Below, piece by piece: positions 3 through 9,626 of a stretch of DNA of 64,000 bases; position 1 is the stretch's first letter, and each line of letters opens with the position of its first letter. A program made the translations under genes and the position numbers. This stretch comes from Natrarchaeobaculum sulfurireducens. GTDB lineage: Archaea > Halobacteriota > Halobacteria > Halobacteriales > Natrialbaceae. The notes beneath the pieces are model-generated. The model worked only from the letters and a program-made list of their open reading frames with translations, searched no databases and was not told the DNA's origin. The stretch is taken from contig NZ_CP024047.1 of NCBI RefSeq assembly GCF_003430825.1, forward strand, positions 3,038,001 to 3,102,000, read 5' to 3'.

Positions 3-761
3 TTAGCGGATAACGCCGCGCGGGTCGATCTCCTCGCGAAGCAGTCGAAGCTGTTCGTCGGTCGGTTCGGGGCTGTGCTCGTAGTCACTCACGTCGATCT
101 CGAAGCCGCTTTCTGCGTTGATCGTCGCCTCCTCGACGCCCGGGTGTAAGAACTCGAGTGTCAGCTTGCAGTCGTCGTCGAAGCCGTAGACGCCGTACTG
201 GGTGATGACGTGGCTCGGCCCGGTGTCGGCGGGCAGGCCTGCCGCCTCACGTGCACCTGGGCCCTCGAGATAGCCCGGTGTGGTCAGGAAGTCGAGTTCC
301 TCGACGAAGCTCGTCTCGTCCTGGCGCATCGCGACGATCGTCTCGTTGGCGAGCGAGCCGATGTCGTTCGCGCCACCGCTGCCGGGGAACCGAACGGTCG
401 GGCGCTCCCAGTCGCCGATGACCGTCGAGTTCAGATTGCCGTGGCGGTCGATCTGTGCCGCACCGAGGAAGCCGTAGTCGACGAAACCGGCGCTCATGTA
501 GGACATGACGTCGTGCATCCCGGCGGCTTTCACGCCGCGGTGGAAGGTTCGCTCGTCGCCGACCGAGATCGGCAGTTCGGGCGCATCGGGGCCGATGCCG
601 CCGGCCTCATAGATCATCGTCGCGTCGGGCGCGTGGGTCTTCTGGGCCAACATCGCCGCGAGCATCGGCATCCCCGTCCCGACGATGATCGTGCTCTCGT
701 CTTCGATGAGTGTCGAGGCAACGGTCGTCAGCAGTTCCGTCGACGTGTATTCCTCGCTCAT
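3..761 (-). CDS. CoA transferase, subunit B (glutaconate/3-oxoacid type, IpdB-like)
   Basis: 252 residues, complete, with the stop at the window edge. The sequence resembles the beta subunit of family I CoA transferases (glutaconate CoA-transferase, and IpdB of steroid ring degradation). Visible features are an N-terminal VGTGMPMLAAMLAQ segment and the glycine-rich motif RFPGSGGANDIGSLA around residues 124-138, typical of the substrate and CoA pocket. It is the last gene of a four-gene minus-strand operon and its ATG overlaps the stop of subunit A by 4 nt, so the two subunits are translationally coupled. The family moves CoA between carboxylic acids or, in IpdAB, hydrolyses a ring C-C bond. 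The substrate cannot be read from the sequence. Confidence 0.82.
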   Translation of the reverse strand: MSEEYTSTELLTTVASTLIEDESTIIVGTGMPMLAAMLAQKTHAPDATMIYEAGGIGPDAPELPISVGDERTFHRGVKAAGMHDVMSYMSAGFVDYGFLGAAQIDRHGNLNSTVIGDWERPTVRFPGSGGANDIGSLANETIVAMRQDETSFVEELDFLTTPGYLEGPGAREAAGLPADTGPSHVITQYGVYGFDDDCKLTLEFLHPGVEEATINAESGFEIDVSDYEHSPEPTDEQLRLLREEIDPRGVIR

Positions 762-1780
762 GTGCGCTCACCTCCTTCGGGACCGCCCGTCTCCGGGCGC
801 TCGTAGTTCTCGATCGCCTCGAGATCGGCCAGACGCTCCTCGCCGCCGACGACCTCCAGGTACTCCTCGAAGTCCTCGGTCCCGGTGACGTACCGTTCGA
901 GGTACTCCTCGAGGCCCTCCTCGGTCTCCGTTAGCTCCATCCACTCCTCGAGGTGGGCTTCGTCGAAGTAGTACTGATAGGGCATCTCACCGGGATGGCT
1001 CCCATAGGGGGCCTCGACGACGGCGTCGACGAGGAAGTAGGGGATTTCGACCTCCTTCGGTCGCGCGCGGAGTTCGTCGCTGTCGACGATCTCCTCGGCG
1101 GTAATGATCAGTCGTTTAGCCGCAGCCGCCAGCTCGGGGTCCTCGACGCTGATGCCGTCGATGACGGCGTTGCCGTACTTATCCGCTTTCGAGACGTGGA
1201 TGCAGACGGCGTCGGGGTAACAGGCGGGAACGAGCGTGATCGGCTCGCCAGTCCAGGGGTCCTCGACGATATTCGCCGAACTCTTCTCGAAAGTCTCCGT
1301 CCCGGCGAGAATCCGGCTGGGGATGAACGGGACGCCCATCTTCGCGGCGAGGAATCGCCACTGGAGCGTCGCGTTACTCGCTTCGGCGACGACCTCGACG
1401 TCACCCTCCTCGACCCGGCGACGACCTGCAGGGGCGAGCCCGCGGGTCTCGTGGGCGAAACAGTAGGCCGCCTCGACTTTCGAGACCGCACCCGCCGCGA
1501 TCAGCAGGTCGGCGTCGAAGACGGTGGTCTTCCCGGAGAGCGTCAGGTCCTCGATGCCCTGTCTGACGATCTCGTGGAGGATCGGTGTCGAGATGCGGAC
1601 GTGGCCGAAGCCGCCACTCGCCAGTAAGTCGCCGTCGTCGACGAAGCGCTCGACGGCCTCCCTCGCAGTCATCCGCTTGTCCTCGAACGCTCGCGAACGG
1701 TGCTCACGGTTCCAGGCTCTCACGTCGTCGGGGTGTTCCCAACCGACGAGTTCGCCCTCCCCTTCGTCGATGACGTTCAT
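758..1780 (-). CDS. CoA transferase, subunit A (glutaconate/3-oxoacid type, IpdA-like)
   Basis: 340 residues. It resembles the alpha subunit of family I CoA transferases: an early VDDGDLLASGGFGHVRISTP segment (about residues 48-67) corresponds to the first glycine-rich CoA-binding region, followed by SGKTTVFDADLLIAAGAV. It is longer than a typical 3-oxoacid transferase alpha subunit and in the size range of glutaconate CoA-transferase A and IpdA. It overlaps the DUF35 gene upstream and the beta subunit downstream by 4 nt each, so it should form a heteromer with the latter. An acidic C-terminal tail of about 80 residues is unlike the bacterial enzymes. The acyl substrate is unknown. Confidence 0.82.
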   Translation of the reverse strand: MNVIDEGEGELVGWEHPDDVRAWNREHRSRAFEDKRMTAREAVERFVDDGDLLASGGFGHVRISTPILHEIVRQGIEDLTLSGKTTVFDADLLIAAGAVSKVEAAYCFAHETRGLAPAGRRRVEEGDVEVVAEASNATLQWRFLAAKMGVPFIPSRILAGTETFEKSSANIVEDPWTGEPITLVPACYPDAVCIHVSKADKYGNAVIDGISVEDPELAAAAKRLIITAEEIVDSDELRARPKEVEIPYFLVDAVVEAPYGSHPGEMPYQYYFDEAHLEEWMELTETEEGLEEYLERYVTGTEDFEEYLEVVGGEERLADLEAIENYERPETGGPEGGERT

Positions 1781-2175
1781 TCGTCGGTCACCTCCTGTCC
1801 GTCGACCGGCGTAAATCCGACGAATCGCTCGGCATCCGTCCCGGACTCGAGCACCGTCGGCTCGACCTCGAGTCCGGTCTCGACTGCCTCGGGGTCGATG
1901 CCGGTGACCTGGCCGGTCAACGTCACGGGACCGAACGACGCGAGCGCGACGACGTACGGGGCGTCTTCCCCGAAGTCGGGGTGAGGCACACGGATGACCG
2001 TCTTCGAATCGACCGTTCCCGTCCGAGCGAGTGGCACGCGCTCGAGGTCGGCATCTCCCGTCACGAGCGGCGGGATGGTTGCCTCGCCGTCGGTTCGGAG
2101 GTAGTAGCCGTCACCTTCCTCGAGTGCATCGAGCCAGCTGTCGTAGTCCGCCTGCAGAACGCGTTCGACGCTCAT
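1777..2175 (-). CDS. DUF35-type OB-fold protein without its zinc ribbon
   Basis: 132 residues. The C-terminal half (PYVVALASFGPVTLTGQVTG, then VGLEVEPTV-like strands) has the look of the DUF35 OB-fold subunits that pair with SCP-x/acetoacetyl-CoA-type thiolases. Family members normally start with a four-cysteine rubredoxin-like zinc ribbon; this protein has no cysteine at all, so the metal site is missing while the OB-fold is kept. The gene lies between the thiolase and the CoA transferase with 4-nt overlaps on both sides, which supports a complex with the thiolase. Such subunits bridge or stabilise thiolase-like enzymes (archaeal acetoacetyl-CoA thiolase/HMG-CoA synthase; Ltp2-ChsH2 aldolase). 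Placement in DUF35 is by pattern and context. Confidence 0.65.
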   Translation of the reverse strand: MSVERVLQADYDSWLDALEEGDGYYLRTDGEATIPPLVTGDADLERVPLARTGTVDSKTVIRVPHPDFGEDAPYVVALASFGPVTLTGQVTGIDPEAVETGLEVEPTVLESGTDAERFVGFTPVDGQEVTDE

Positions 2176-3338
2176 GAGTCGACCTCCAGCACGTGAACAG
2201 CAGCCGTCGCGACCGTGCCACCGGCGTTGTGGGTGACGCCCACCTCCGCATCGGCGACTGCATCGGCGTTGGGATGCGTACCCGCGAGCAGTTTCGTTAG
2301 CTCGACGAGCTGGCCAACGCCCGTCGCAACGGGGTGGCCCTTCGCTTTCAGTCCGCCCGAGAGGTTGACCGGACGCTCGCCGTCGGCGGTCGTCTCGCCG
2401 TCAGCGGCCGCCGTGATCGCCTCGCCGGGCTCGTAGAATCCAAGCGCCTCGAGAGCGAGGACTTCGGCGATGGTAAAGCAGTCGTGGACCTCGGCGACGT
2501 CGACGTCTTCGGGAGCGATGCCAGCCTGGTCGTAGGCCGCATCGGCCGCCGACTCGGCCGCCCGCATTCGGGTGACGTCCTCGCGCGCTTGCAAGGCCAG
2601 GGTGTCGGTCCCGCGTCCGGAACCCGCGATCGAGACCGCAGCCTCGAGGTCGTTTCGCTCGGCGTACGCACGGGAAACCAAGACGGCGGCAGCGGCCCCG
2701 TCGGTGATCGGACAGGCATCGAGCAGTCCCAGCGGGTCAGCAACGGTCGGAGCCTCGAGGACGTCCGCGACGTCGATTTCGCTCTGGAACTGCGCCTTCG
2801 GGTTCGTCGCCGCGTTCGCGTGATTTTTCACGGCGATGTGAGCGAGCGCGTCACGTGAGCCGCCGAAGCGATCCATGTAGGCGTCAGCGAGCAACGCATA
2901 CGCACCGGGGAACGTCAGGCCGGGACGCCCCTCGTGGAGTTCATCCGCCGCACGGGCGAGCGCCGCGGTCGTCTCTCCGGTCTCGAGATTCGTCATCCGC
3001 TCTGCGCCGCCAACGAGGACGACGTCCGCTGCGCCGCTTTCGATCGCACGAACGCCGTCGGCGATCGCGTAGCCACCGGAGGCACACGCGTTCTCGATCC
3101 GCGTGGCCTCGAGGTTGGTCGTGCCGATCCCGGCGGCCATCAGCGGGGCCTGGTGACTCTGTTCTTCGGCCGTCTCGCCCATGTAGTTGCCATAGTAGAG
3201 GGCGTCGACGTCCGAACCCGAGACGCCGCTCGCCTCGAGCGCGCTCGAGCGCGCCTCGGCGAACAGCTCTCGGCCGGTCCGACCGGCGTGTTCGCCGAAG
3301 TCGGTCGCGCCAACACCGGCTATCAGTGTCTCTGCCAT
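2172..3338 (-). CDS. Thiolase family protein (archaeal/SCP-x type)
   Basis: 388 residues, usual length for the family. Nucleophilic cysteine in ENACASGGYA (about residue 85), an HDCF motif (about residue 287), KAKGHPVATGVGQ with the catalytic histidine, and the C-terminal THNAGGT loop in place of the second catalytic cysteine of classical thiolases; this combination marks archaeal and SCP-x thiolases. The reaction is Claisen condensation or thiolysis of beta-ketoacyl-CoA, or retro-aldol cleavage in the Ltp branch. It is the first gene of a four-gene operon whose members all overlap by 4 nt, so its product probably acts with the DUF35 protein and the CoA transferase. Confidence 0.85.
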   Translation of the reverse strand: MAETLIAGVGATDFGEHAGRTGRELFAEARSSALEASGVSGSDVDALYYGNYMGETAEEQSHQAPLMAAGIGTTNLEATRIENACASGGYAIADGVRAIESGAADVVLVGGAERMTNLETGETTAALARAADELHEGRPGLTFPGAYALLADAYMDRFGGSRDALAHIAVKNHANAATNPKAQFQSEIDVADVLEAPTVADPLGLLDACPITDGAAAAVLVSRAYAERNDLEAAVSIAGSGRGTDTLALQAREDVTRMRAAESAADAAYDQAGIAPEDVDVAEVHDCFTIAEVLALEALGFYEPGEAITAAADGETTADGERPVNLSGGLKAKGHPVATGVGQLVELTKLLAGTHPNADAVADAEVGVTHNAGGTVATAAVHVLEVDS

Positions 3339-3462: not shown

Positions 3463-4794
3463 CTATCGCTCGGAGAGCGACCCCGGCGTCCACGAGCTAT
3501 CGAACGTATCGTGGACGAACGGTTTCCCATCGGCACCGGCGTACGTCCCGACGACCTGCCCGTCGCCCTCGAGATAGTACTGGTACGTGGTGAGCCCCTC
3601 GAGGCCAACGGGCCCGCGGGCGTGGATCTTTCCGGTGCTGATGCCGACCTCGGCACCGAGTCCGTAGCGGTAGCCGTCGGCGAACCGAGTCGAGGCGTTA
3701 TGAAAGACACTGGCCGAGTCGAGACTCCGCATGAACCGCCCGGCTCGGTCGGCGTCGTCGGTCACGATGGCGTCCGTGTGTTTCGAGCCGTACGTCGTTA
3801 TGTGGCGAGTCGCTTCCGCGAGCGAGTCGACGATCTTGATGGCGAGCACGAGGTCGCCGTACTCGGTCTCCCAGTCGGCTTCGTCCGCCGTCTCCATCGG
3901 GACGATCGCTCTCGAGGCGTCGTCGCCTCGCAGTTCGACGCCGGCGTCCTCGTACTGGGTCGCGATTTCGGGCAGGAACTCCTCAGCGACAGCCTCGTGG
4001 ACGAGCAGCGTCTCGACGGCGTTACACACCGCGGGATACTGCACCTTCGCATCGTAAGCGATGTCGGTCGCCATCGAGAGATCGGCGTCGCTGTCGACGT
4101 AGACGTGACAGACGCCCTCCGTGTGGCCGAGCACGGGGATGCTCGTGTTGTCCTGGATGTAGCTCACGAACGCCGAACTGCCCCGCGGCATGACGAGGTC
4201 GATCTCGTCGTCCATCTCGAGGACGGTGTCGACGTCGGCTCGCGCCTCGATGAGCTGGGCCCATCCGTCGGGGACGTCGGCCGTCGCCTCACGGATCAAC
4301 TCGAAGAGGACGCGATTCGAGTGACTCGCCTCGCTGCCACCTTTGAGGATCACCGCGTTCCCCGATCGGAGACAGAGCGACGCGATCTGGACGAGCGCGT
4401 CGGGTCTGGACTCGAAGATCGTCCCGACGACGCCGATGGGGACGGTACACTTGTACAGTTCTAACCCATCGTCGAGTTCCCGAGCCGTCTGCGTTTTTCC
4501 GAGCGGATCCTCCTGGGCGGCGACGCTCCGAACCATCGCCGCGATACTCTCGAGTTTCGACGGCGAGAGCCGAAGCCGGTCGACGAGTGCCTGGCTGTAC
4601 TCCCCCGCCTCGAGGAGCTGTTCGGCCTCGCGAACGTCTTTCTCGTTGGCCGAGAGGATCGCGTCGTGGTTCGCGTCGATCGCCTCGGCGATCGACTCCA
4701 GTGCGTCCGATCGCGTCTCGTCGGACGTCCCTGCGATCTCGAGTGCAGCCGTCTGTGCCTCCTCTACTTTCGTTTCGGTCGTTTTCTCAGTCAT
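3463..4794 (-). CDS. proA: Glutamate-5-semialdehyde dehydrogenase (gamma-glutamyl phosphate reductase)
   Basis: 443 residues from the ATG at 4794 ([12 protein letters not shown]); an ATG two codons upstream at 4800 is an alternative. The open frame extends to 4923, but that part lies inside proB and reads as low-complexity shadow. NADPH-dependent reduction of gamma-glutamyl phosphate, second step of proline synthesis. Catalytic cysteine in [15 protein letters not shown] (about residue 245), [21 protein letters not shown], and the C-terminal [16 protein letters not shown] block, all hallmark ProA segments. It overlaps the proB stop by 8 nt and is the last gene of proC-proB-proA. Length matches the family. 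Confidence 0.95.
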
Positions 4795-5638
4795 CGTCAT
4801 CTCCGTTGATGGGGACGAATAGGGTCCCGACCGCTTCTTTGGCGGTGATCTTGGCCAGGACGTCGTCTTCGGTCGACTCGGCGATAATGGCCGGGATGCC
4901 GTGTTCACTTGCCGAGCGGGCACCAGCCACCTTCGTCTGGATGCCGCCGAAGGCGTCCCTCGAGCTCTCGGTAACTACCTCCTGAACCGTCGTATAGTTA
5001 CTCCCGACGGCCTCGATGCGCTCGGCCGATGGGTCGCGCTTTGGGTTCCCGGTGTAGACGCCGCCGACGTCGGTGAGCGTAACCAACAGATCGGCATCGA
5101 TACCGATCGCGACCGACGACGACAGCATGTCGTTGTCACCGATGCGAAGCTCTTCGGTCGCAACGGCGTCGTTCTCGTTGATGATCGGGACGATGTCCCA
5201 CTCGAGGAGCGTCTCGACCGTGTTCGTAAAGTTGGTAAACCGGTCCGGGTTCTCGAGGTCGTGTCCCGTGAGCAGGATCTGGGCGACGGTCTGGTCGAAC
5301 CGCTCGAATCCCTCGGTGTACCGTCGCATGAGCTGTGATTGCCCGACCGTCGACAGCGCCTGTGATTCCTCGACCGTCTCGTCCGTCAACCCAATTAGCC
5401 CCTTTCCGGCTCCGACGGCCCCGGACGAGACGAGGAGGACCTGCTTTCCCGCCTGGCGAAGGTCCATCACGTCCTCGACGAGTTTATTCACCTTCTCGTC
5501 GTCGAGCCTCGAGCGGTCGTCGGTCAACGAATTCGTGCCCGCCTTGACGACGACCAGTTCGGCGTCCACTGCGAGCTGTCGGGCATCGTCGATAACCGCT
5601 GGCTCGACGGCATCGGTGAGATCGGCCGCCTCACTCAT
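4787..5638 (-). CDS. proB: Glutamate 5-kinase, short form without PUA domain
   Basis: 283 residues. ATP-dependent phosphorylation of glutamate, first step of proline synthesis. Seen: [12 protein letters not shown] near residue 30, [13 protein letters not shown] for the phosphate loop, INENDAV, and the acidic-cluster aspartates in [16 protein letters not shown]; amino acid kinase fold. E. coli ProB is about 367 residues and has a C-terminal PUA domain, which is absent here, so only the kinase domain is present. Start chosen at 5638, overlapping the end of proC by 8 nt. Proline feedback control may differ from the bacterial enzyme (inference). Confidence 0.93.
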
Positions 5639-6407
5639 GCTCGACTCCCCGTGCCAGCTCTTCTGAGCGGCGTTCTGCGGCGGCGACCGCGGCCATCAGC
5701 GCCTCGTCGGCCGTACTCTCTCGAAGGACACCCATTCCCTCGATGGTCGTTCCCTTCGGAGAGCAGACGTCGTCGATGAGGTCGTCGATGGACGCATCCG
5801 ACTGAAGGACGGTCTCGGCGGCACCCTTGAACGTCTGTGCGGCGAGAACTGTCGCATCGTCGCGGCTCAATCCGCCGTCGACGCCCGCCTGAATCATCGC
5901 ACCGATGAAATAGTAGACGAATGCGGGGCCGCTCCCGTTGACTGCGGTGGAAACGTGCATCTCCGTCTCGTCGATTTCGACGAACACGCCGACGTCCTCG
6001 AGCAGGTCGGCGACCTCGTCGGTGAGCGTCTCGGCGCTTACAGCCGCTGCCATATCCCCCGTCGCGGCCGCGAGGTTCGGCATGAGCCGAACGACGTCCG
6101 CGTCCGTCCGCGCTTCGAGCACCGTCGTCGGAACGCCCGCAGCGATAGAGATCAGCGTCTGATCCGACGACAGGTCGAGATCCTCGACGATGGCGGCGGT
6201 GAGGTCCGGCTTGACGACGACGAAGACGATCGGCGACTCGGCGGCAGTCGCGAGGTCAGTCGTGGTCGTTTCACAGTGGACTTCGATCTCGTCGAGTACC
6301 TGTTGATCAACGTCGCAGGCCGTGATCGTGTGGGTTCCAGTTCTCGAGAGTCCTCGCACGAGGGCACTCCCCATGTTTCCACATCCGATAACGCTGACGT
6401 GTCCCAT
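5631..6407 (-). CDS. proC: Pyrroline-5-carboxylate reductase
   Basis: 258 residues from the ATG at 6407 ([20 protein letters not shown]). The frame is open to 6491 but the extra 28 residues are arginine- and alanine-rich shadow. NAD(P)H-dependent last step of proline synthesis. Rossmann motif GCGNMGSA at the N-terminus; [52 protein letters not shown] and the C-terminal [16 protein letters not shown] signature are all present. First gene of the proC-proB-proA operon. It starts 176 nt downstream of the 23-residue membrane peptide gene on the same strand, so it probably has its own promoter. Confidence 0.95.
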
Positions 6408-6583: not shown

Positions 6584-6655
6584 TCAGATCTTCAGGAAGA
6601 GGACGATCAGGTTGATCACCACCATCGCGACGAAGCCGACGAGCCAGAGTTCCAT
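6584..6655 (-). CDS. 23-residue single-span membrane peptide downstream of symporter
   Basis: A 23-codon ORF begins with MELWLVGFVAMVV and ends in FLKI. Apart from one Glu near the start, one Asn and a Lys near the end, it is entirely hydrophobic, so one membrane helix spans the whole peptide. A full GGAGGTGAT Shine-Dalgarno, complementary to the 16S 3' end, lies 4-5 nt before the ATG. It starts 13 nt after the symporter stop codon, so it belongs to that transcript. Full-strength ribosome binding sites are uncommon in haloarchaea, which argues for real translation. It could be a small accessory subunit of the symporter. I recognise no family. Confidence 0.68.
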   Translation of the reverse strand: MELWLVGFVAMVVINLIVLFLKI

Positions 6656-6668
6656 ATCATCACCTCCG

Positions 6669-8183
6669 TTAGAGTTTGAAGATGGGTTCGACGTGGTCTG
6701 GAACGTTCTCGCCGCTGGCACCGTCTGTCACGTATGAGACGAAGATCGTCACGGAGATCGAGACGGCGATCGCGATGAAGTAGAAGTCCATCCCGATCGG
6801 GAACGCATACCCCAGTTGCGTCGCGGCCAACAGTGTGACGTTGAGCAAGAGGGCAGAGGCGAGACCGGCGGTGACGCCCTCGCGGCTCGCACCCTTCCAG
6901 AGCAAGCCGACGACGACCGCCGGAATCGTCCCGCTGACGAACGTCCCCCAGCCGAAGGTTCCGAGAATGGCGACGAGGTGTCCACCGTAGAGGCCGAAAA
7001 GCACCGAGCCGACACCGACGACGAGCACCGCAGCCCGGCCGAGCCAGGTCTCGCGTTTCTCGGAGAACTCCCAGCCCATCGCCCGCACGAAGTCACGGGC
7101 GATCGCACCGGAGGCCACCGACAGGAAGAACGCGGCGGTGGACATGATCGCGGCGACCAGGCTCGCGTAGATGAGCATCTGGAGACCGATGTGGAGCCGT
7201 TCGACGAACTCGAAGGCCGCCATGTCGGGATCCGTAAGCGGCTCGATGGTCCCTGCCGCAACCATGTAGAGTGCAACGAAACCGATGAGCAACCAGAGGA
7301 GGCTCCCGACGGCGTAGGTGACGCCACTGACGAGACCGACGGTTCGCAGGCCCTTCGGATCGTCGATCGAGAACATCCGCTGGAGGACCTGTGGCTGGCC
7401 CATAACACCGATACTGAAGACGATGGGCCAGATCAAGAGCAGGCCGGGTGCCGAGCTTTCTGCGAGCCCCCAGCCGTCGAGCATTTCGGGAGTGAACGCT
7501 TTCGTCACGTCCTCACCGGTGAGTTCGCCAGCCTCGACGACCGTCATGGTCGTGTTCTCCATTCCACCAGCGATCTGGAAGAAGCCGACGATGACACCGA
7601 CGACGCCGACCAGCATCACCGCGCCAGTGTACGCTCCCGCGAGCTGGGCGGAAGCCATGCCGCCGACGGCGACGTAGACGATGATCAGGCCGAAGACGGT
7701 CCAGACGGCGGCTTCCATCGAGATGCCGAGGATCACCGAGAGGACGTAGCCACCGCCTGCGACCTGCGACGCGAGATACGCCCAGCAGGCGATAAAGAGG
7801 ATCAACGCGAGCATCCCGCGGATCGCACCGCTGTTAAAGCGCTCGTCGGCGATGTCACCGAGCGTCCCGATGTCGGCGACGTCGGCCATCCCGCGGACGC
7901 GCTTGCCGATGATCCAGTAGGCCATCGCGAAGCCCAGCCCGCTGGCGAAAGTCATCCACAACGAGGAAGTCCCCATCTCGTAGACGAGTCCGGGGCCGCC
8001 GATAAATCCGAACGCGCTCATGATTCCTGACATACTCGCCAGGGTAATCACCGCCGCACCGAACATCTTCGTCGCACCGTAGAACTCGTCCGAGGAGTCG
8101 ATCAACCGCTTGCTGTAGAGACCGACGCCGAACACCGAGAGAATAAACAGGGCAACGAAGCCCGGAACGAGCAGATCGATCAT
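6669..8183 (-). CDS. Sodium:solute symporter (SSS family)
   Basis: 504 residues, about 13 hydrophobic segments, and the usual family length. Early LYSKRLIDSSDEFYGATKMFGA followed by LASMSGIMSAFGFIGGPG corresponds to the unwound first core helix and sodium site of LeuT-fold SSS transporters; GQPQVLQRMFSIDD matches the conserved cytoplasmic loop of this family. Its start overlaps the stop of the four-helix protein gene (TGATG), so the two are co-translated. An SDR resembling 3-hydroxybutyrate dehydrogenase is upstream and a 23-residue peptide gene is downstream. A short organic acid such as 3-hydroxybutyrate is a reasonable substrate guess from context. Proline is an alternative because of the neighbouring pro genes. 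Confidence 0.88.
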   Translation of the reverse strand: MIDLLVPGFVALFILSVFGVGLYSKRLIDSSDEFYGATKMFGAAVITLASMSGIMSAFGFIGGPGLVYEMGTSSLWMTFASGLGFAMAYWIIGKRVRGMADVADIGTLGDIADERFNSGAIRGMLALILFIACWAYLASQVAGGGYVLSVILGISMEAAVWTVFGLIIVYVAVGGMASAQLAGAYTGAVMLVGVVGVIVGFFQIAGGMENTTMTVVEAGELTGEDVTKAFTPEMLDGWGLAESSAPGLLLIWPIVFSIGVMGQPQVLQRMFSIDDPKGLRTVGLVSGVTYAVGSLLWLLIGFVALYMVAAGTIEPLTDPDMAAFEFVERLHIGLQMLIYASLVAAIMSTAAFFLSVASGAIARDFVRAMGWEFSEKRETWLGRAAVLVVGVGSVLFGLYGGHLVAILGTFGWGTFVSGTIPAVVVGLLWKGASREGVTAGLASALLLNVTLLAATQLGYAFPIGMDFYFIAIAVSISVTIFVSYVTDGASGENVPDHVEPIFKL

Positions 8184-8680
8184 CAGTTACGCACCTCCGC
8201 TGATTCGGCCGTTTCCTGGGCGTCAGCTTCGGCGTTAACTCGTTCGACCTCCTCGAGGAACCGGTCCCACTCGCCTTCCGGCAAGAAGTGCTTGCGGAAG
8301 TAGATGCCGTAGGCCAGCGTGACCGTCATGAATCCGCCGACCCAGTACAGCCAGTAGGCGGCAGCGAACGACGGGTGCATCCCGGTAATCAGGAACTCCG
8401 GCGAGCCGCTGAAGGCGTTCGCGTAGTACTCGATCAGGACGTACGCTGACAGCTGGAAGACCGTCCAGATCCCCAGCGGATAGACGAGCAGTTTCGTCGA
8501 GATCGTTCCGTTCGAACTCGCGCCGATGACGAACCACGGGTGAAAGAGAAACACCGATAGCAACAACGCCGGGAACCACTGCCCCACCAGGGCAAGCCCG
8601 AGAACGACAGCCCAGAGGACCCCGCTCGCGAGCATCAGCTCCGAGGTCCTGCTCTCGACGTCGATCTCACCGTTCAACAT
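8183..8680 (-). CDS. Four-helix membrane protein, candidate symporter partner
   Basis: 165 residues from the ATG at 8680, which has GGAGG about 9 nt upstream. The frame is open further upstream but that portion looks non-coding. Four hydrophobic segments: LASGVLWAVVLGLALVG, FPALLLSVFLFHPWFVIG, LLVYPLGIWTVFQLSAYVLI and FAAAYWLYWVGGFMTVTLAY. A charged cytoplasmic tail of about 40 residues follows (FRKHFLPEGEWDRFLEEVE). Bacterial SSS transporters often have a small membrane subunit encoded just upstream (DUF485/DUF4212 types); this one is larger and I cannot assign it to those families. The TGATG overlap with the symporter supports a shared function. Confidence 0.72.
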   Translation of the reverse strand: MLNGEIDVESRTSELMLASGVLWAVVLGLALVGQWFPALLLSVFLFHPWFVIGASSNGTISTKLLVYPLGIWTVFQLSAYVLIEYYANAFSGSPEFLITGMHPSFAAAYWLYWVGGFMTVTLAYGIYFRKHFLPEGEWDRFLEEVERVNAEADAQETAESAEVRN

Positions 8681-8753
8681 CGCCCCGCCCTCCGGGGAAC
8701 CGATTCGCCCCGCTCGAGTCGCCGCCGTGTTTCGGTTGTTCGGGTCATGTCTA

Positions 8754-9626
8754 TCACTCGTAGGTGTTGACGAAGCCGCCGTCCCACAGCAGGTCATCGC
8801 CGTTGAGATGTTTGCCGTGCCGGGAAAGACCGAACGCGAACAGGTTTCCGGCTTCGACGGGCTCCATCATCTCCGAAGCCCGTGCCTGCCCGAGCATCAC
8901 GTCCTCGACGACCGCTCGCTCGGAGATTTCTCGTTCCCTGGCCGTATCAGCGATCTGGTCCAACACGAGCGGCGTCTTGACGTAGCCCGTACTGACCGAG
9001 AACGCCCGAATGTCGCCCTTTCCTTCCGCTGCGGTCGATTTGGTGAGCCCGCGAAGGCCGAATTTCATCGTGTTGTACGCGACCTTATCGCGGGTCACGT
9101 AGTGGCCGTGGACCGAGGCCATGTTGGCGATCGCACCGACGCCGTCGTCCGACTCCCGAATGTGCGGGAGCGCCAGTCGTGTCAGATACATCGGCGCACG
9201 GAGCATCACCCGGTAGATCAGGTCGAACGTCTCCATCGGGAACGACTCGATCGGCGAGATGTACTGCATCCCAGCGATATTCGCGACGTATCGGAGCTGT
9301 CCGGCGTCGGCAGCCGTCTCGACTAACGCCTCGATCTCGGCGTCGTCGGTCAGGTCACAGCCGACCGGCTCGAGACGACCTTCGATCTCGAGTTCCTCGC
9401 CTTTCTCGACGGTCTCGGAGAGGCCGTCCTCGTCGACGTCGGTCGCGACCGTCGTCAGGCCGTTAGCCGCCAGGACGAGCGCCGTCGCTCGACCGATACC
9501 CGAGGCCGCGCCGGTTACGATCGCGACGTTCTCCGGAGAGAACCGTGGATCGTCGAGTTGGTGGATCGCCTCAGCGGTGATCTCGGGCGGTTCGATACTA
9601 CTGTGAGTGTCGGATTCTTCGCTCAT
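8754..9626 (-). CDS. Short-chain dehydrogenase, 3-hydroxybutyrate dehydrogenase-like
   Basis: 290 residues. NAD(P)-binding TGAASGIGRAT at about residues 39-49, catalytic Ser in NMASVHGHY and YxxxK in YNTMK. The segment STGYVKTPLVLDQIADTARERE with the following VVEDVMLGQ closely resembles the substrate lid of bacterial D-3-hydroxybutyrate dehydrogenases, which oxidise 3-hydroxybutyrate to acetoacetate. A 35-residue N-terminal extension precedes the Rossmann fold. Likely first gene of the minus-strand unit with the four-helix protein (73-nt gap) and the symporter, consistent with import and oxidation of a hydroxy acid. Function is by motif resemblance. Confidence 0.8.
   Translation of the reverse strand: MSEESDTHSSIEPPEITAEAIHQLDDPRFSPENVAIVTGAASGIGRATALVLAANGLTTVATDVDEDGLSETVEKGEELEIEGRLEPVGCDLTDDAEIEALVETAADAGQLRYVANIAGMQYISPIESFPMETFDLIYRVMLRAPMYLTRLALPHIRESDDGVGAIANMASVHGHYVTRDKVAYNTMKFGLRGLTKSTAAEGKGDIRAFSVSTGYVKTPLVLDQIADTAREREISERAVVEDVMLGQARASEMMEPVEAGNLFAFGLSRHGKHLNGDDLLWDGGFVNTYE

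Follow-up and report, generated by a model that had tools for sequence, protein, structure and literature searches.

What is encoded by the 23-codon open reading frame (ORF) that lies directly behind a sodium:solute symporter (SSS) gene of the archaeon Natrarchaeobaculum sulfurireducens, and does its product belong to the transporter? SSS carriers are usually regarded as single-chain transporters. The frame, here called the micro-ORF, is found in a 64,000-nucleotide stretch of contig NZ_CP024047.1 (positions 3,038,001 to 3,102,000; the window, from the first letter of which all coordinates are counted unless otherwise stated). An ORF and coordinate check gives the following order on the minus strand: an SDR oxidoreductase gene (8754–9626), a gene for a four-helix membrane protein of 165 amino acids (8183–8680), one for an SSS family transporter of 504 amino acids (6669–8183) and the micro-ORF (6584–6655), which encodes the peptide MELWLVGFVAMVVINLIVLFLKI with one predicted membrane helix. 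The stop codon of the four-helix gene and the start codon of the symporter gene share 1 nt (TGATG), and the ATG of the micro-ORF (6655) is positioned exactly 13 nt past the symporter TAA (6671–6669). The Shine–Dalgarno site GGAGGTGAT (6659–6667) precedes it, with a spacing of 7 nt between GGAGG and the ATG. The gene order, the 13 nt gap, the hydrophobic 23-codon frame and its Shine–Dalgarno site are all as described in the original prediction, which read the peptide as built to be translated and as an undescribed micro-subunit of a transporter for short hydroxy acids. We find that the micro-ORF is a genuine gene, with conservation at the protein level and strict linkage to the symporter. Its peptide probably serves this one SSS symporter subfamily as a single-helix accessory subunit, which would associate with the transporter and stabilize it.

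That the micro-ORF is a real gene follows from its conservation among orthologues, its co-occurrence with the symporter, the drop in identity at its stop codon and the pattern of its substitutions. The original prediction proposed that loss of the frame or of its Shine–Dalgarno site in relatives would speak against it; behind each orthologue of the symporter that was examined, with identities ranging from 98% down to ∼73–76%, both the micro-ORF and GGAGGT are retained, and this attempt at refutation failed. The loci span the Natrialbaceae and the Haloarculaceae and are located on chromosomes as well as on plasmids (Natronomonas pharaonis and Halocatena marina). Among 391 Halobacteria genomes, the nine matched by a peptide profile are exactly the nine matched by the symporter protein, the two matches being at adjacent positions, and the peptide is found in no other of these genomes. 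Nucleotide identity to the relatives amounts to 75–96% over the micro-ORF, mostly higher than over the 3′-terminal 72 nt of the symporter gene (61–90%), and is 38–52% just past the micro-ORF stop, compared with 40–48% for shuffled sequence. Across the aligned codons of the micro-ORF, pairwise substitutions at codon positions 1, 2 and 3 number 256, 68 and 299, respectively, and eight residues (Trp4, Leu5, Gly7, Phe8, Met11, Leu16, Phe20 and Lys22) are invariant in 11 distinct peptide sequences.

The peptide varies in length between 22 and 25 residues. In the variant MELPLWLIGFVGMVLINLIVAFMKI two extra codons are present, and a two-codon insertion near the N-terminus preserves the reading frame at three loci (L010, L186 and L187); MIWLIGFVAMIVVTLIVLFSKI is the variant found in Halocatena. 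The frame is open at all loci, GTG replaces ATG as the start codon at one of them, and the spacing to the Shine–Dalgarno site is retained. The gap between the symporter stop and the micro-ORF start stays within 13–16 nt across the orthologues. As a control, ∼90 other haloarchaeal SSS loci were inspected: a short hydrophobic ORF right after the stop codon occurs in three, none of which has GGAGG.

Neither the peptide nor the four-helix protein of the window matches any Pfam or NCBIfam family. The only Pfam signal for the peptide is PsbJ, below the cut-off (E = 0.76), and PsbJ is also the closest match among solved structures, with E values of 2.5 and worse. In the records checked the micro-ORF is unannotated. 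In two Halocatena marina plasmid records (L160, 7457–7651 of that locus, and L161, 5457–5651) a hypothetical protein is instead annotated on the reverse strand across the micro-ORF, which is probably a spurious call and illustrates how gene callers overlook a gene of this size.

The Shine–Dalgarno site deserves separate attention. The original prediction argued that strong ribosome sites are uncommon in haloarchaea, and the present genome bears this out: within 464 kb of it, using a crude gene call, GGAGGTG precedes five of 252 leading genes (2%) and seven of 73 operon-internal genes (∼10%). A pattern search of the assembly did not find the exact 16S 3′-end pattern; the anti-Shine–Dalgarno sequence of this organism is assumed to be the usual one. 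In Haloferax volcanii Shine–Dalgarno motifs do not drive initiation at 5′-untranslated regions (PMC3986360), while in Haloferax they serve the downstream genes of coupled pairs with variable importance (PMC6728339). Moreover, GGAGGTG is also found upstream of the start codon of the symporter gene in this operon, so the peptide is not alone in having a strong site. For these reasons the ribosome-site argument is weaker than was originally put. The claim that the peptide is made to be translated retains the conserved frame and its conserved GGAGGT, and the strong site supports translation, although it is not proof alone. Together, the conserved 13–16 nt gap and the near-full Shine–Dalgarno sequence could reflect tuned reinitiation or local initiation.

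The partner of the peptide is clearly an SSS protein, with 131.6 bits to PF00474 (E = 4.4e-38) against a gathering score of 22.8. It resembles the TIGR00813 and PutP models in NCBIfam at scores far under their curated cut-offs; the PutP model TIGR02121 gives 113 bits against 515.5, which places the symporter outside that family. The structure model of the symporter has a mean predicted local distance difference test (pLDDT) score of 56, and no detail in it is reliable beyond the presence of ∼13 helices. The AlphaFold model of the four-helix protein (mean pLDDT 70) contains four long helices and a C-terminal one, and no meaningful relative was found by structure search (best E = 3.1) or by sequence. 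Linkage to the symporter is as consistent for the four-helix gene as it is for the micro-ORF. At distant SSS loci (∼33% identity), too, the gene immediately before the symporter encodes a diverged protein of comparable size.

How might the peptide act? We propose that it is translated off the symporter mRNA, by reinitiation or by local initiation at its Shine–Dalgarno site 13–16 nt behind the stop codon, and that it would insert into the membrane as one helix. An orientation with the N-terminus out and the C-terminus in is probable from the positive-inside rule, since the sole charge common to all members is a lysine near the C-terminus. The helix would then pack on the exterior of the transporter, most plausibly against its C-terminal helices, and would aid the folding, stability or activity of the symporter. 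The peptide has the genetic hallmarks of a single-helix accessory subunit, namely a hydrophobic helix, conservation at the protein level and inseparability from one transporter. This reading is favoured because the peptide stays with the symporter both when the SDR gene moves and when no cluster gene follows closely. The SDR gene is located after the micro-ORF rather than before the symporter in L179, L186 and L187, where the peptide remains with the symporter, and the stretch close behind the peptide at L002, L006 and L176 showed no cluster gene on the same strand. The peptide is thus not a leader for one particular gene behind it. Among Haloferax gene pairs, the two products are subunits of one complex 8.1 times more often when the spacing is −8 to +10 nt than when it exceeds 20 nt (PMC10666635); at +13 nt, the symporter–peptide pair is inside the +11 to +20 nt range that was omitted in that study.

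Several observations weigh against an accessory subunit. Most of the orthologues are closely related, and pairwise selection tests on 63 nt are individually weak (P = 0.002–0.25 for radical changes). Judged from Haloferax, where reinitiation declines with distance and a spacing of 13 nt lowered it by 60% in one of the pairs studied (PMC10666635), the 13 nt gap would reduce reinitiation. Conservation does not form a significant helical stripe (permutation P = 0.45) and the sequence alone marks no binding face; Trp4, Phe8, Met11, Asn15 and Lys22 are near one pole of the helix, though not significantly so. Finally, the symporters of ∼33% identity have the four-helix partner without the peptide, which is therefore not a general requirement of SSS transporters.

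It is rather unlikely, on balance, that the peptide acts on the four-helix protein instead, or as a regulator of the symporter–four-helix pair such as an uptake brake, and not as a structural subunit. Such a role would agree with the equally strong linkage of the four-helix gene and with its 1 nt overlap with the symporter start in the window, and small transporter regulators such as AcrZ are known (PMC7267776). However, it sits poorly with the distant symporters that manage with a four-helix partner and no peptide, and the peptide gene is always directly behind the symporter gene.

We regard it as very unlikely that the micro-ORF is a translated spacer or leader, the translation of which matters rather than the product, for instance in protecting the mRNA 3′ end or in downstream coupling. 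A strong Shine–Dalgarno site directly behind a long ORF would suit this role, as would the use of Shine–Dalgarno motifs in haloarchaeal reinitiation (PMC6728339). Such a spacer does not, however, account for specific amino-acid conservation (invariant Trp, Gly, Phe, Met, Phe and Lys) or for the frame-preserving insertion of two codons, and the next gene varies, is roughly 200–350 nt away or is on the opposite strand.

The accessory-subunit reading leaves the question of what the symporter carries. In the relatives the cluster continues with genes for a thiolase, its OB-fold partner, CoA-transferase subunits A and B and a helix–turn–helix regulator, and in Halocatena a polyhydroxybutyrate (PHB) depolymerase gene follows the cluster. 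The corresponding genes of the window are at 6–3338, on the same strand as the micro-ORF: a thiolase of the beta-ketothiolase type (2181–3338; PF00108, PF22691 and NF004720, the last above its cut-off), the OB-fold partner (1810–2145; PF01796), CoA-transferase subunit A (767–1780; PF01144, E = 3.5e-32) and subunit B (6–761; PF01144, E = 2.8e-25). Subunits A and B are 87 and 89% identical, respectively, to those of the N. pharaonis cluster. The SDR enzyme has TIGR01963 (3-hydroxybutyrate dehydrogenase) as its best family, with 207.5 bits (E = 2e-61) against a curated cut-off of 307, and also matches PF00106; judged by sequence, it is related to 3-hydroxybutyrate dehydrogenase without reaching the threshold of that family. 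Following uptake by the symporter, the encoded enzymes would convert 3-hydroxybutyrate via acetoacetate and acetoacetyl-CoA to acetyl-CoA. The neighbouring SDR, CoA-transferase, thiolase and PHB depolymerase genes make 3-hydroxybutyrate or acetoacetate the likely cargo. A transporter for short hydroxy acids, as originally proposed, is thus probable, and the gene neighbourhood narrows the choice to these two compounds. The cluster thereby becomes a testable candidate for haloarchaeal uptake of 3-hydroxybutyrate, for example that released from the bioplastic PHB.

In the window, proC, proB and proA homologues (3463–6407, minus strand) separate the micro-ORF from the thiolase and CoA-transferase genes. 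Together with the records of relatives, which say 'sodium:proline symporter', they raise the possibility that the operon belongs with proCBA and that the cargo is proline. We hold this to be highly improbable. Cluster genes were mapped at a set of related loci, and at none of those where the thiolase gene comes after the symporter is there space for the pro genes: the gap is ∼230–390 nt in L001, L004, L007, L008 and L009. The pro genes therefore look like a local insertion in the window. The low score against the PutP model likewise argues against proline.

An origin of the micro-ORF as a fortuitous frame within conserved noncoding DNA is barely credible: it has only 23 codons and lacks annotation in the records checked, but conservation ends at its stop codon, third codon positions are the most variable, the frame stays open at all loci, with a single ATG-to-GTG swap, and the Shine–Dalgarno spacing is retained.

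The cluster has a patchy distribution (nine of 391 haloarchaeal genomes) and is plasmid-borne in two genera; a search of three further genomes of the same genus, two of which are incomplete, did not detect it. The patchiness and the plasmid location suggest spread by horizontal transfer. Haloterrigena sp. H1 contains a second copy of the entire cluster (L011/L182) in which the symporter gene is split by a frame change while the micro-ORF and its Shine–Dalgarno site are unchanged; an intact micro-ORF beside a split symporter suggests a recent duplication.

Elsewhere in this genome, outside the window, a further small gene accompanies another SSS symporter. It is an unrelated ORF of 54 amino acids with two helices (MKLFGTLLGTALWLLIGIGTAALAV...; G000:C3:634754-634915, loci L131 and L210), located 16 nt behind the symporter gene. 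It is conserved in 13 of 125 genomes of the family and is found 14–26 nt behind the same transporter type in nine of the ten loci read, mostly without a strong Shine–Dalgarno site, and it matches no NCBIfam family.

The peptide can be compared with several known systems. In the same phylum, a very small single-helix protein also adjoins an SSS symporter: the NCBIfam family NF045580, 'symporter small accessory protein' (symport_access; 33 positions, curated cut-off 35 bits), is found above its cut-off in 44 of the 148 Halobacteriota genomes searched, none of these being among the haloarchaea listed. In contrast to the window, where the peptide gene is downstream of the symporter gene, the NF045580 gene is upstream, with an SSS-like ORF directly downstream of it in the methanogen loci read. 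The family also differs in its conserved motif M-x-G-I-x-D-P-x-I-W-x-x-Y...C...Y-G...W-N. Membership of the peptide in NF045580 was rejected, as neither the peptide nor eight relatives match it and hhalign gives a probability of 0.1%; a family search with NF045580 found no match in the genome of the window. A search of the literature available found no paper naming a 'symporter small accessory' family.

The closest working model for the peptide, by analogy, is MAP17 (PDZK1IP1) on SGLT2. MAP17 is an accessory subunit with one transmembrane helix that packs on TM13 of human SGLT2, an SSS-family (SLC5) transporter, which requires MAP17 and is stabilized by it (PMC10803289). It is larger than the peptide, with parts outside the membrane, and is not a homologue as far as is known; Pfam and solved-structure searches gave no sequence homology of the peptide to the MAP17 or KdpF families. 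SGLT2 has 14 helices, whereas the haloarchaeal symporter apparently has 13 in its low-confidence model, which may leave room for a helix supplied in trans. A bolder scheme, unlikely but worth stating, is that the peptide supplies in trans a helix at the place of MAP17 or of the 14th helix and that the symporter works only as a three-part complex with the four-helix protein and the peptide. If true, small subunits would be obligatory for this SSS carrier, one of them would be among the smallest archaeal transporter subunits known, and the arrangement would be one of several independent inventions together with methanogen NF045580 and the 54-amino-acid gene of this genome.

More distant parallels are found outside the SSS family. 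KdpF is a bacterial single-helix micro-subunit, a short hydrophobic peptide bound to a membrane complex. AcrZ and CydX are of this type as well (PMC7267776 and PMC6005532). The partners of KdpF, AcrZ and CydX differ from that of the peptide, being a P-type ATPase, an RND pump and an oxidase, respectively. MetS of MetPS and YjcH of the actP operon are small membrane proteins whose genes accompany those of sodium-coupled secondary transporters; they are longer and form families of their own, unlike the family-less peptide. That a micro-gene is never parted from its symporter, whether in different genera, on plasmids or in rearranged operons, suggests that SSS accessory helices are commoner than annotated. 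The case is clean and testable, although its distribution is narrow and others of the kind preceded it. Of the 'undescribed' micro-subunit originally proposed, the novelty of the sequence stands, while the idea of an SSS micro-subunit is not new in view of NF045580 and MAP17: the peptide is a separate new sequence family restricted to one rare symporter subfamily, of a kind already known, at least to annotators.

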